DNA of 31,591 bases from a virus. The DNA lies in the IMG/VR virus record IMGVR_UViG_3300046007_008112, positions 1 through 31,591 of that record; one strand, given 5' to 3'. Positions 21,790-27,165 of the stretch are shown one piece after another (positions within the stretch are counted from its first letter, which is position 1; each line of letters begins with the position of its first letter). The notes below the pieces were generated by a model that was not told the DNA's origin, did not search any database, and was given only the letters and a program-made list of their open reading frames with translations. A program made the position numbers and the translations under genes.

Positions 21790-21868
21790 CGAAACACAGC
21801 TATCAGTGAAGACCATCTTCCTGATCATTACGGCGTCGAGTCTGGTGAAGGAGAAGGTGAAGCCATGA
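21782..21868 (+). pseudogene. Truncated copy of the small membrane-peptide gene
   Basis: ATG 21782 overlaps the previous stop. The 28-residue product MSDETQLSVKTIFLIITASSLVKEKVKP matches the first ~16 residues of the 23303 gene (MSDETEMSVKTIFLII) and then diverges, losing the membrane segment. At DNA level the first 14 bases and a later 21-base block (AAGACCATCTTCCTGATCATT, 21810-21830) are identical in both copies. Its stop overlaps the methyltransferase ATG. It looks like a leftover from a duplication that brackets the methyltransferase gene, now serving perhaps as a leader peptide. Confidence 0.65.
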
Positions 21869-23247
21869 GATTCGGATCAGTATGCAGCGGCATTGAAGCG
21901 GCCTCAGTAGCGTGGCATCCACTTGGATGGCAAGCTGCGTGGTTCTCGGAGATCGAGCCGTTTCCCAGCGCGGTGCTGGCCCACCACTACCCTGATGTCC
22001 CCAACCTTGGAGACATGACACTACTGCCAGAGCGCATCCTCTCGGCTGAGGTCGAGGCACCAGACCTATTTTGTGGTGGCACACCATGCCAAGCCTTCTC
22101 GGTGGCCGGTCTTCGTAATTCTCTGGACGATGCCAGAGGCAATCTTTCACTCATATTCGCAGGTATCGCAAATGCAATTGACCATGTTCGATCTGTTCGA
22201 GGAGACGATCCGGCAATCATCTTCTGGGAGAACGTCCCAGGAGTCCTCTCAACCAAAGACAACGCATTCGGCTGCTTTCTTGCAGCACTTGCCGGGGAAG
22301 ATGATCCGATCATCCCATCAGGGGAAAAATGGACAAACGCAGGTTGTGTGTATGGTCCCCAAAGAGCAGTCGCGTGGCGAGTCCTTGACGCCCAATATTT
22401 CGGAGTGGCCCAACGACGCCGTCGTGTGTTCGTTGTCGCAAGTGCTAGAGCAGACTTTGATCCCGCAGCGGTTCTTTTTGAGTTCGACGGCCTGCGCCGG
22501 GATACTGCGCCGAGCAGAGAAGCGGGGCAAAAGCCTGCCCCTTGCGTTACAAACGGCCCTCCTTTCAGTCGCACAGGCAACGAAAGAGTAGAGGCTGAGG
22601 CTATGGTGGTAGCCGTACGAAAGGTTGCTTTAGGTGAATACTTGGATGATGGCGTTGCCAGCACCATGAAAGCTAGGGACTACAAAGAGGCAACTGATCT
22701 GGTGGCACAAACTTTTTCAATCCCAGCAATTGGGCACATTGTTAAAGATGATGTGGCAAGCACCATGACAAGACACACTGGTAGTGGATCTGGAGAAACT
22801 CAAAACCCTGCATTTGTGGCGCAGCCAGCCTACGCAATCCAAGGCAGCATGATCGGTCGCAACGACAATGCTAGCCCGCAAGGTGATGGCATCAATGAAG
22901 AAGTATGCTTTACGCAGAACACAATTGATCGCCATGCAGTGGCGCAGCCAATCGGTTGGGACGAGGAGTTGAACGCCAGCACCGAGCAGTCTGGAACCCT
23001 GCTGCGCGGCGGTCAGGGCGGTCGCCATGATGGCGTCATGACATCGACCATGCAAGTGCGCCGTCTTACGCCAGTTGAGTGCGAACGCCTACAAGGGTTC
23101 CCCGACAACTACACCAACATCCCTTGGCGCAAGAAAGATGAGTCGCCTGATGGCCCACGGTACAAGGCGCTGGGCAACTCATGGGCGGTGCCAAATGTCA
23201 GATGGATCGGCCAACGGATCGCAGAGCATTTGAAAGCCCATCCCTAA
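21865..23247 (+). CDS. dcm: C5 cytosine-specific DNA methyltransferase
   Basis: The 460-residue protein has the standard motif series: motif I FGSVCSGIEAASVAW (3-17), motif IV GGTPCQAFSVAG with catalytic Cys75, motif VI WENV (121-124), motif VIII QRRRRVF (183-189), motif IX RRLTPVECERLQGFPDNYT, and motif X ALGNSWAVPNV near the end. The target-recognition part (about 200-390) is long and repetitive (VASTMKARDYK and VASTMTRHTG; VAQP twice). It would methylate phage DNA to evade host restriction. No partner nuclease is seen, so it is an orphan. A second open frame (22172-22591) is nested inside it. Confidence 0.9.
   Translation: MRFGSVCSGIEAASVAWHPLGWQAAWFSEIEPFPSAVLAHHYPDVPNLGDMTLLPERILSAEVEAPDLFCGGTPCQAFSVAGLRNSLDDARGNLSLIFAGIANAIDHVRSVRGDDPAIIFWENVPGVLSTKDNAFGCFLAALAGEDDPIIPSGEKWTNAGCVYGPQRAVAWRVLDAQYFGVAQRRRRVFVVASARADFDPAAVLFEFDGLRRDTAPSREAGQKPAPCVTNGPPFSRTGNERVEAEAMVVAVRKVALGEYLDDGVASTMKARDYKEATDLVAQTFSIPAIGHIVKDDVASTMTRHTGSGSGETQNPAFVAQPAYAIQGSMIGRNDNASPQGDGINEEVCFTQNTIDRHAVAQPIGWDEELNASTEQSGTLLRGGQGGRHDGVMTSTMQVRRLTPVECERLQGFPDNYTNIPWRKKDESPDGPRYKALGNSWAVPNVRWIGQRIAEHLKAHP
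22172..22591 (+). CDS. Gene nested in the methyltransferase, +1 frame (139 aa)
   Basis: This frame is open from 22073; I start at ATG 22172 (MQLTMFDLFEETIRQSSSGRTSQESS), with ATG 22184 as the alternative. It overlaps methyltransferase residues 103-242 completely. The C-terminal half reads LTPNISEWPNDAVVCSLSQVLEQTLIPQRFFLSSTACAGILRRAEKRGKSLPLALQTAL. I recognise this as a recurrent phage protein pattern (SSSGkTs-----, then iseWpn----cSLs-iLE---iP-ryfLs--AC-GILRRa-kRGK-LP--L--AL), normally met next to or within cytosine methyltransferase genes. That reading, plus its length, argues against a shadow frame. Ribosome-binding evidence is weak. Function unknown. Confidence 0.6.
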   Translation: MQLTMFDLFEETIRQSSSGRTSQESSQPKTTHSAAFLQHLPGKMIRSSHQGKNGQTQVVCMVPKEQSRGESLTPNISEWPNDAVVCSLSQVLEQTLIPQRFFLSSTACAGILRRAEKRGKSLPLALQTALLSVAQATKE

Positions 23248-23926: not shown

Positions 23927-24466
23927 TTACTTGCGCCAATCAGTCTGATCCCAGTTGCCTTTGCCGTGGTTGCACTCGTGACAAAGGATCTGAAGGTTGC
24001 TGATTTCCATGGCCAGAGATGGCCAGGCTTTGCGCGGTTTGATGTGGTCTACGTTCATCACGGCACCCGCGGCTGGCGTAGCCCCGCAGCACATGCACTT
24101 CGGTCCGTACTTCTTGAGGGCCTCCATACGGAGCTTGCGCCACTCGTAGGTTTCTAGGAACTCCTTAGAGGTTACATCTACGCCCGCGACCTTTGTGGGT
24201 TGTGGCCGACTTGGGATGGTCGTCCGGACATCGCTTCGCAGCTTTTGCTGCCTCCTGGCCTTCTTCGCCGCTTTCCGGGCCCGCTGCTTTTCGGCTTTGC
24301 TTTGTTTCGGCGGAGGCGCCGGCTTGGCGTCTATCTGCTTTTGCCTCTCACTCTTCTTCTCGGCCTCTCTCTCGATCTTCTTGCTTGCCCTGATCTTTGC
24401 CAGAAACTCCATGCGCTGATGAGGTGTAGCGTTCTTCCAGGCCTCTGATGTGAACAAGTCTTCCAT
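23927..24466 (-). CDS. HNH endonuclease
   Basis: I start at ATG 24466 (MEDLFTSEAWKNATPHQRMEFLAKIRAS), giving 179 residues. Residues about 30-75 are a Lys/Arg/Ala-rich basic helix. The C-terminal HNH domain reads YEWRKLRMEALKKYGPKCMCCGATPAAGAVMNVDHIKPRKAWPSLAMEISNLQILCHECNHGKGN. Two CxxC pairs bind zinc and VDHI holds the catalytic His, with NLQILCHECNHGKGN closing the fold. No good SD is seen ahead of the start. Such proteins are packaging-linked nickases or homing enzymes. It lies downstream of a structured gene-free region (24467-25062), which may matter for its role. Confidence 0.82.
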   Translation of the reverse strand: MEDLFTSEAWKNATPHQRMEFLAKIRASKKIEREAEKKSERQKQIDAKPAPPPKQSKAEKQRARKAAKKARRQQKLRSDVRTTIPSRPQPTKVAGVDVTSKEFLETYEWRKLRMEALKKYGPKCMCCGATPAAGAVMNVDHIKPRKAWPSLAMEISNLQILCHECNHGKGNWDQTDWRK

Positions 24467-25062
24467 GTGAGTCCGAGCGAGTGAGTGAGCGATTTTCGGG
24501 AAAGCTATGCCTAACGGTGACCGTGGCCACCTACATAGCATTACCTGAGTCGTCGGTCGTTCGCTCGCTTCATCAGGGGGTGTGTAAAGTTGTTCGCCAC
24601 ACCCTATCTCCCAACGTTATCCGCTCAACATGCGGCATTCCCTGACCACACCGTCGGGAGGCGACCCTACCCTCGCCACCGTGTACCGTCTCAATGAAGG
24701 ACTGGATTGGTATAGCTACTCTACGATCACTCTATCCCTATGCGCCCGGCTGGGGATGCTTCTGTCCGGGGTACAACACAAGCCAGAACTGTAGTGACCC
24801 TGCTCCTTGGGAACTACGCTTTGGCTGCGCTCCGTGACGGCCACAGTTACTCACTTCCTTCACCCTCGGTATGAGATCTTTCCCGCTAGACTCTTGCGTC
24901 GGCCGCCGCAGCAGGTGAGGGGGCGCGAACGCCCATGAAAAAAGCCGCTTACAACTACGATCCGGTAGCAACCTTAACTGATGACTCTCCCACTGAAAGC
25001 ATCGGGTAAGGCGGATCGTATGTGTAAACGGCCTTAGTTTCTCGTCGCTTGCTACGGCAACG
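24467..25062 (-). ncRNA. Candidate structured non-coding RNA upstream of the HNH gene
   Basis: No convincing gene lies in these ~600 bases. The minus strand begins after a good promoter and folds into many hairpins. They are a long helix 24944-25032 (10 bp plus 9 bp around a 2-nt internal loop); GGGCG-TTCG-CGCCC at about 24920-24933; GGCGA/TCGCC over GGGTAGGG (about 24660-24678); GGGTGTG/CACACCC (about 24577-24604); and GCTATG/CATAGC enclosing GGTG/CACC (about 24504-24539). T6 at 24938-24943 may end a short ~125-nt form. It could be a large phage RNA of the GOLLD/ROOL sort, a regulatory leader of the HNH gene, or something new. I could not match it to a known class. Confidence 0.55.
24938..25032 (-). 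terminator. Long hairpin followed by T6 (possible end of a short RNA)
   Basis: On the minus strand GCCGTTTACA pairs with TGTAAGCGGC (one G-U), and inside it TACGATCCG pairs perfectly with CGGATCGTA. CCTTA/TAAGG lies within the apical part. TTTTTT follows the 3' arm directly. The span (89 nt) is long for a terminator, so this may equally be an internal domain of a longer RNA. Confidence 0.5.
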
Positions 25063-25241: not shown

Positions 25242-25526
25242 TTAGCCGCATTGCTTGAGCAGCGCAAGGGCCTCCTCTACGCCCGTCACAATGTGCAGGT
25301 TATCGCCGGGCCAGCGGTCATGAAACTTCTGCTCCGCGGGCGATAACTGCCTCGCCGAGGGCGGGAGCCTGCCATTCTTGACCTCCAGCAGCAACGTGTG
25401 CCCCCGATACCACACCAGCAAATCAAACCGGCCGGCGTCATTGATGGTCTCCACATGGGCGCCGCACGCCTGCAGAGCAGAGATGATCTGGTCCTCATTG
25501 GCGTCCCGGCGTGCAGCCATCCTCAT
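25242..25526 (-). CDS. VRR-NUC domain nuclease
   Basis: The 94-residue protein reads MRMAARRDANEDQIISALQACGAHVETINDAGRFDLLVWYRGHTLLLEVKNGRLPPSARQLSPAEQKFHDRWPGDNLHIVTGVEEALALL. The N-terminal E in ANEDQI, GRFDLLVWYRG with Asp, LLEVK (PD-(D/E)XK core) and the LSPAEQKFHDRW helix are the full set for a stand-alone viral VRR-NUC. These are Holliday-junction or branched-DNA nucleases in repair and replication. AAGGA lies 9 nt before ATG 25526; the internal ATG 25520 is possible. It is divergent from the recombination operon. Confidence 0.85.
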   Translation of the reverse strand: MRMAARRDANEDQIISALQACGAHVETINDAGRFDLLVWYRGHTLLLEVKNGRLPPSARQLSPAEQKFHDRWPGDNLHIVTGVEEALALLKQCG

Positions 25527-25574: not shown

Positions 25575-25605
25575 TTGACATGTCTGGGAATCTACCTGCT
25601 ATAAT
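25575..25605 (+). promoter_or_regulatory. Strong sigma70 promoter of the recombination operon
   Basis: A perfect TTGACA (25575-25580) and a perfect TATAAT (25600-25605) are 19 bp apart, with TGC just before the -10 (extended -10). The spacing is 2 bp longer than ideal. Start is expected near 25612, giving a ~508-nt leader before ATG 26120. Confidence 0.85.
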
Positions 25606-25611
25606 CAACCA

Positions 25612-26119
25612 CAGACTACCTGATATAAATGGCGAGCAGTCGAAAGGCGAGGTGGGGTCGGCCAAGGTCCTGACCGGCTCGGCAAGGGCTGACAACAGCC
25701 AGAAGGATCAATCCTTCTGAGTGTTGTGCGAGCCTTGGACCGGCAAGGTCGGGAGTGGAGAGCATGGGTGAGGTCAGGCACGGCAAGCACTGGCAAGGGC
25801 TGTTTACAGCGGGGAGGCGACTCAACGAGCCGCTTCTTCGGTGGCAACACCATTTGGCGGGCTACGGTTAGCAAAGCTATGGCTTGGAAGCGCACCGATT
25901 GGCCGGGATCGCTAGGGATCGGCAAGGGCTGTTAACAGCGGGGTGAATGTTCAATGAGCTTTCACTTCGGTGGCAACACCAATTGGCGTGGCTGTACTCG
26001 GCGAGAGCGCGGTCAGGCTCGGCCGGCAAAGCTGTGGCATGGGCTGCAATGCAGCGGGATGGGTCTTTATCGAGGATTCATTCCGATGCAAAGGTGCATC
26101 AATCAACTACAGGAAAACC
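25612..26119 (+). ncRNA. Leader with four tandem structured RNA repeats (A-D)
   Basis: GGCAAGGGCTG begins at 25681, 25792 and 25921, and GGCATGGGCTG at 26037 (spacing 111, 129 and 116 nt). Each starts a module of small hairpins. In units B and C the offsets are identical: HP1 GCTG-4 nt-CAGC (25799-25810; 25928-25939), GGGG, HP2 (25815-25835; 25944-25964), CTTC, HP3 GGTG-GCAA-CACC with a GNRA loop (25840-25851; 25969-25980). HP2 differs in sequence but keeps pairing, with three fully compensatory base-pair changes. Unit D (26043-26100) repeats the plan with other sequences and ends at the SD. Unit A has HP1 (25687-25700) and HP2 (25701-25718). Open frames here do not resemble proteins. Confidence 0.72.
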
Positions 26120-26689
26120 ATGAAGACTGTTTCAATTCAAATCACCGGCAAATCGCCGCTGCTCATGCACTCGGACCGATTTGCCAACCCGCTGGACCCG
26201 TTGACCAAGGCCCACAAAGAGCTGACAGGCAAGCGCAAGAAGACCGACGACGACCACATTGCCATCGCCCGCAGCGAGTTCATCGGCGGCTGCTACTGGC
26301 GCAAAGATGTTGGCTTCTACATTCCGGCACAAAACCTCGACGCCTGTTTGATCGCCGCGGCCAAGCTCCAAAAGCTGGGAGTCAAGTTCAAGCAAGGCGT
26401 GCAGGTGCTGGAAGACGAGCTTCAGTTTGAAGGCTACGAACGCAAAACCCCCGAGCAACTCTGGAGCGACGCCGATCATGTGGACTGCCGCGGCGTCAAG
26501 GTCGGCACCTCAAAGATCATGCGCTACCGCCCCATCCTCCGCAAATGGAGTGTCAAAGCAACCATCGTCGTCAACGAGGACGTGGTGAACATCAGCGAAG
26601 TCAAGAAGGCCGCACAAGACGCCGGCGCACTGATCGGGCTTGGCGACTACCGCCCGCGCTTTGGTCGCTTTAACGTGGACTTCATATGA
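26120..26689 (+). CDS. RAMP-like phage protein of the recombination operon (189 aa)
   Basis: ATG 26120 follows ACAGGAAAACC, just behind the last leader hairpin; the open frame back to 25970 runs through that structured leader. The protein begins MKTVSIQITGKSPLLMHSDRFANPLDP and has an HIAIARSEFIGGCYWRKDVGFYIPAQNLDACLIAAAKLQ middle, VLEDELQFEGY, and ends GALIGLGDYRPRFGRFNVDFI. The G-tPLLMh--r opening and GLGD-RP-fGrF ending occur in an uncharacterised phage family near annealases and SSBs. The C-terminal pattern resembles Cas7/RAMP RNA-binding proteins; I regard that link as inference. Confidence 0.75.
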   Translation: MKTVSIQITGKSPLLMHSDRFANPLDPLTKAHKELTGKRKKTDDDHIAIARSEFIGGCYWRKDVGFYIPAQNLDACLIAAAKLQKLGVKFKQGVQVLEDELQFEGYERKTPEQLWSDADHVDCRGVKVGTSKIMRYRPILRKWSVKATIVVNEDVVNISEVKKAAQDAGALIGLGDYRPRFGRFNVDFI

Positions 26690-27165
26690 CAGAACCGACC
26701 CTGTTCCCGGCCTGGAAACAGGCCGTCAGGGTGCTGCTCGATGAGGGACTAACCTATGGCAGCACCGTTACACGGAAACGCCTTGCAGACCTCTGTCAGG
26801 TCAGACAGCCAGAGAGCATCGAGGATGTGCGGCGCTACGACTTGGAGCTACTCACTTGCATCACGGAGATCAAGGACGTTTTGCTTACCGCTCACTGCAT
26901 GTTGCTGGTCACCGACAACAAGGGCGCATACGTCGTTATCGCGCCAGAGTCGCAGACCCAGTATGCGGTGGACAACGGCATCAAAGCCATCGGCCGCGAG
27001 ATGAAGAAGATGTCAATGGCCGTCAGCTTTACAAAGACGGACCTTCTGTCTGACGCAGACCGGGCCAAGAACGCAGACGCCCAGGCAAAGATCGCCATGC
27101 TTGCTGGGATGGTCAAGACCAAGGGCGCCGATTTATTGAAACTATCAGAACGGAAACCTGAATGA
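26686..27165 (+). CDS. Hypothetical protein (159 aa), possible winged helix
   Basis: ATG 26686 overlaps the previous stop. The product begins MTEPTLFPAWKQAVRVLLDEGLTYGSTVTRKRLADLCQVRQPESIEDVRRYDLELLTCITEIKDVLLTAHCMLLVTDNKGAYVVIAPESQTQYAVDNGIKAIGREMKKM. The first 90 residues look like helix-turn-helix plus a wing (LLVTDNKGAYVVIAP), and the end is helical. Similar proteins sit beside annealase/exonuclease genes in phages. A regulatory or DNA-binding role is possible. Confidence 0.68.
   Translation: MTEPTLFPAWKQAVRVLLDEGLTYGSTVTRKRLADLCQVRQPESIEDVRRYDLELLTCITEIKDVLLTAHCMLLVTDNKGAYVVIAPESQTQYAVDNGIKAIGREMKKMSMAVSFTKTDLLSDADRAKNADAQAKIAMLAGMVKTKGADLLKLSERKPE

Follow-up and report, generated by a model that had tools for sequence, protein, structure and literature searches.

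The approximately 508-nt leader at 25612-26119 of this viral DNA (IMG/VR record IMGVR_UViG_3300046007_008112; "the window" denotes the whole stretch of 31,591 nt) is, with a probability that we put at roughly 0.9, a tandem array of four guide RNAs (vrRNAs) of a VIPR system, with vipr and vap1 downstream of it in the same orientation. VIPR, first described only in 2026, is presented in the main text of PMC13142463 (preprint version 2) as a Vipr protein plus vrRNAs in which 9-16 YNNGG words are joined to a structured tail; it binds double-stranded DNA via the NN letters, each word passing over one target base, and represses competing phages. The systems of the SUSP1 and P. fulva prophage clades are classed there as type II. 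Our reading draws on the Vipr homology, the RAMP-like predicted fold, the vap1-like neighbour and the anatomy of the SUSP1 locus; on the five-base period, the word composition, the units found in 42 of 43 related loci and the covariation of the tails; and on the decoding of guides A, B and D, including words beyond the searched pattern, together with integrase matches that arose among 98 guides by a 1-nt skip only. The array, the tail covariation, the Vipr and vap1 homologies and the decoded matches are all read from nucleotide and predicted protein sequences.

A sequence-only reading had placed a near-consensus TTGACA/TATAAT promoter and the leader ahead of ATG 26120, and all three are confirmed here (Table 1). 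What it missed is an array of GG dinucleotides with a five-base period between the hairpins. GG pairs at lag 5 number 24; dinucleotide shuffles give 9.0 +/- 2.8, the highest of 2000 being 19, and the periodicity echoes at lags 10, 15 and 20. Since GG recurs every five bases, the unit boundaries move, and a unit becomes a GGHNN word tract plus the tail behind it. GGCA(A/T)GGGCTG, taken earlier as the opener of each module, is instead the guide-to-tail junction (GGCAAGGGCTG), in which the last guide word (GGCAA or GGCAT) meets the start of the tail (GGGCTG...). Of the four diverged modules proposed, unit A has another tail, without the GNRA-capped HP3. Units B and C carry three hairpins each, as described (79% identity over 68 nt, 129 nt apart), and unit D, said to copy this architecture and to end at the Shine-Dalgarno sequence, folds as three hairpins, with its tail next to the ribosome-binding site. 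Searched against phage records, the leader DNA returned just two 32-nt matches, judged to be chance.

Table 1. Features of the array and its neighbours; positions are those of the window.
Feature	Positions	Strand	Reading
Small nuclease-like gene, the window's own guide A target homologue	25242..25526	-	site EVKNGRLPPS, 7/10 words; family by homologues, phrog_93, phrog_5702
Putative promoter, TTGACA 25575-25580 and TATAAT 25600-25605	25575..25605	+	promoter-like; 19-nt spacer; read from sequence
Guide A	25631..25685	+	ten coding words and terminal GGCAA; NN = GA GT AA GA GG CG AA CC CC TC
Tail A	25686..25736	+	class differs from tails B and C; inverted repeat 25692-25727
Guide B	25737..25796	+	eleven coding words and terminal GGCAA; NN = CC AA CG GT GA TG GA CA AC AA CT
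Tail B	25797..25851	+	HP1, HP2, HP3; covariation
Guide C	25856..25925	+	thirteen words and terminal GGCAA; several GG degraded
Tail C	25926..25980	+	HP1, HP2, HP3; covariation
Guide D	25985..26040	+	ten words, one 6-nt step, and terminal GGCAT; NN = GT TG TC GA GC CA TC CG AA GT; antisense TFRDWASEQT
Tail D	26041..26100	+	folds as three hairpins; adjoins ribosome-binding site
vipr (Vipr homologue, RAMP fold, phrog_4652)	26120..26689	+	PDB 36pp_D match; AlphaFold model
Diverged vap1 homologue (phrog_5926)	26686..27165	+	homology to genes after vipr in LESphi2 and SUSP1

The guides of the window array contain 10-13 coding words of period 5. Over 101 guides, the first two positions of the word are G in 94% and 88%, the third is H (A 20, C 50, T 29 and G 0%) and the last two are N; this consensus is related to the GGY/NN word of which a VIPR guide has 9-16, with GGH in place of GGY and some words degraded. 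We counted three features against the VIPR reading: the third base, which is A in 20% of words here versus a pyrimidine in the main text of PMC13142463, the several degraded GG scaffolds, and the 6-nt step of guide D.

The compensatory changes in HP2 (25815-25835 versus 25944-25964), from which a selected RNA structure had been proposed, are real and hold in homologous tails. Among 18 distinct tails from related phages, both sides of HP2 changed in 9/13 pairs, with a covariation score of 0.340 versus 0.155 in shuffles (0/500 reach 0.340), which do not take out the effect of relatedness among the sequences; the signal is lost when the partner is slid by 1-3 columns, a control that does retain this relatedness. 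HP2 thus supports selection on a conserved, structured 3' tail, the feature expected of a vrRNA. HP1 and HP3 are almost invariant across the 18 tails, and covariation is therefore uninformative for these two hairpins. Tail A ends in the GAGTGTT element of another tail class.

The vipr product matches PDB 36pp_D, named as the SUSP1 Vipr protein, with E=8e-45 (1.4e-58 as a profile), and its reading frame is open and conserved. Its AlphaFold model (mean pLDDT 89.4) matches Csm3 and other Cas7-like chains, with a best E of 5.9e-6 and TM-scores near 0.5, in keeping with a RAMP homologue at the locus. This predicted fold is shared with the RAMPs of Class 1 CRISPR systems (Csm3/Cas7), which use a contiguous spacer whereas the window array has a word tract; neither a CRISPR array nor cas genes were seen in the window. 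The earlier suggestion of RNA units bound by the adjacent RAMP-like protein therefore appears essentially right, the protein being assigned by homology to the Vipr family. The following gene resembles the gene 3' of vipr in LESphi2 (29%) and in SUSP1 (23%; pairwise E=7e-9), and so the vap1-type accessory gene of type II systems is present, by distant homology. Farther downstream lie genes for a PD-(D/E)XK exonuclease, a Sak annealing protein and an SSB. On the other side, upstream of the array, are a DNA methyltransferase-like gene and an HNH endonuclease gene (21865-23247 and 23927-24541).

A search of viral contigs with Vipr gave 43 loci, some of them duplicates. Guide-plus-tail units, for which our finder requires the GG phase and an HP1-like stem, are present in 42 of these; the exception is L045, whose Vipr homologue is 44% identical and whose examined 12.6 kb yielded no vrRNA units. 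Units B-D are common to the window, L004 and L005, and the guide A of L004 and L005 differs from that of the window. In Pseudomonas phage Medea1 (L048 5139), one guide-plus-tail unit stands downstream of vipr and the next gene, and none was found upstream. The SUSP1 locus, read directly, has the same anatomy as the window array, with one vrRNA upstream of vipr and three downstream where the window has all four upstream. The window shares with type II VIPR the Vipr homologue, the vap1-like gene, the GG-NN tract, the structured tail, its encoding by a phage and the 1-nt skip with the skipped base at the wobble position. It differs in its third base (A, C or T), in its tails and in its decoded targets, which are an integrase, the nuclease of a sibling phage and a phage gene of unknown function. 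We would place it in type II, a placement made by homology and not from a tree.

When the NN letters are read with the published 1-nt skip, the skipped base is the codon wobble position in guides A, B and D, the three for which targets were found by this rule; guide C gave none. The 16-base pattern of guide A has 34 matches in viral contigs, 23 of them with all ten words, mostly at EVKDGRKPPS in a small nuclease-like family (the L087 member belongs to phrog_93 and phrog_5702, that of L013 weakly to phrog_93). Homologues of this target gene sit directly upstream of the array in relatives, and at 16 loci they match guide A at 8-10 words. L013, which was obtained via its Vipr protein and not via the guide, matches at 10/10. 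The sites of the window and of L005 match seven words, differing by two amino-acid substitutions and by a synonymous change of an arginine codon from CGN to AGG. Because L005 has this same 7/10 site without guide A, the divergence of the self copy need not answer to the guide.

The 20-base pattern of guide B was found in eight viral contigs and one Paracoccus MAG, and each of the nine sites translates as PKRV(D/E)WDQTKL in the skip frame. Its 11/11 coding words match in a conserved phage gene, whose full proteins, compared for five of the nine sites, are homologous; the copy in L056 is phrog_2480, of unknown function. Word 11, which lies outside the searched pattern, matches at 9/9 sites and the terminal GGCAA at 0/9, which suggests that the terminal word probably lies outside the code. 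The gene following the target in L056 has the P-loop GPSGIGKTT and may be read as a candidate Sak4-like gene. For guide D, 6/9 matches are tyrosine integrases with HG(F/C)RSTFRDWASE, and the remaining 3/9 look like chance; against the L064 integrase the guide scores 10/10 words if the 6-nt step GGCGAG is counted as a single word. For guide C, no consistent gene emerged from one 20-base and two 16-base patterns, and 31 related records contained no match when up to 3 mismatches were allowed; we counted this lack of a target against the VIPR reading.

Two skip controls were made. In the first, 98 guides were scored against the six integrase genes obtained with guide D. With a 1-nt skip, six guides reach 75% (0.33 in the shuffled control), five of them at one integrase site, and with skips of 0, 2 or 3 none of the 98 does; several of the 98 resemble guide D, and hence are not independent of the way in which the integrases were fetched. 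In the second, skip-3 scores of 11 and 13 involve L004 and L005, and by our reading are these arrays matching themselves, a period of 5 being equal to a skip of 3. When all sibling guides were set against sibling flanks, the 1-nt skip showed no general excess, and this also counts against the VIPR reading. A further guide, CG AA TC AC GA GA GG CT, recurs among siblings (L009 3215, L015 5428, L018 5813, L019 5802, L020 5921, L026 5679 and L027 5922) and matches at least 120 viral contigs, versus 15 and 24 for the 16-base patterns of guide C. In 64 of 80 matches read, the sense frame is the longest, and nearly all of these 64, to which individual checking was confined, are serine recombinases matched at YTRKST(D/E)EGL. 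Its NN letters stay constant while the scaffold drifts between sibling phages: H3 differs in 46% of comparisons versus 3-5% for the NN letters in a family chosen by NN similarity, the freedom of H3 being no criterion of that choice.

Could the array be decaying or out of use? The degraded GG scaffolds, the 6-nt step and the lack of a target for guide C would fit such a state, which we nonetheless consider improbable: vipr is open and conserved, the tails still pair, and guides A and D (10/10 words) and B (11/11) match in full, words on degraded scaffolds included. Slightly less probable is a genuine VIPR array that has its true targets elsewhere, the decoded matches being coincidences with conserved protein motifs. 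The matches of each guide are mutually homologous, and thus amount to about one independent match per guide, and the 16-base patterns of guide D also gave chance matches (3/9). Against coincidence, three of four guides match in frame and skip the wobble base, unsearched words match too, guide A matches the gene beside the arrays of sibling phages, and the skip controls favour the 1-nt rule. Tandem hairpins in an early-operon leader are known from antitermination RNAs such as the HK022 put sites, which are without a guide tract or RAMP partner; the window array, likened to them by description and not by sequence, has both. That the leader is a tandem riboswitch, sensor or antitermination element acting in cis on the recombination operon, the protein homology being coincidental, is very improbable: tandem structured, covarying RNA between a promoter and an early operon would suit it, but it leaves unexplained the five-base tract, the Vipr homology, the hypervariable tracts with conserved tails and the targets decoded elsewhere. 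No riboswitch or other RNA family in Rfam reaches its gathering score in the window, in keeping with the earlier remark that no riboswitch could be named. The riboswitch or sensor option is unsupported, the hairpins being probable vrRNA tails and the information lying in the GGHNN tract beside a Vipr-family gene; these readings, with antitermination, were dropped after the Vipr match and the guide decoding.

If the VIPR array works like the published system, in the main text of PMC13142463, the leader would be transcribed and processed into vrRNAs, each a 5' GGHNN tract followed by a folded 3' tail. Vipr subunits would coat the word tract in an RNP and leave the GGH bases unpaired, while the NN letters would pair with double-stranded DNA, skipping one target base per word at the wobble position, and the bound gene would be repressed. 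Guide A, which fits the nuclease gene of sibling VIPR phages more closely than it does the copy in its own phage, may act on those siblings, guide B on a conserved phage gene and guide D on tyrosine integrases, with guide C undecoded; the purpose would be competition with other phages.

The kind of system is already known, and what is new are targets that go unmentioned in the main text of PMC13142463. The words integrase and recombinase are absent from that main text, and similar targets may stand in its supplement. We give even odds to a broader proposal, taken as a whole: that VIPR guides in this phage clade are directed against the codons that specify catalytic motifs (HGFRSTFRDW of tyrosine integrases, YTRKST(D/E)EGL of serine recombinases and EVKxGxKPPS of the nuclease), the wobble base being the one skipped, which would let a single guide serve against many rival elements; and that a guide against the siblings' copy of a gene, beside a diverged self copy, achieves self/non-self discrimination by codon drift. 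The locus supports the VIPR code from sequence alone in uncultivated phages, and points to the aims of these phages, namely the integrases and recombinases of other elements and the nuclease of a sibling phage. Finally, a phage that retains a diverged copy of the gene matched by guide A in its relatives may provide a direct test case for self-avoidance.
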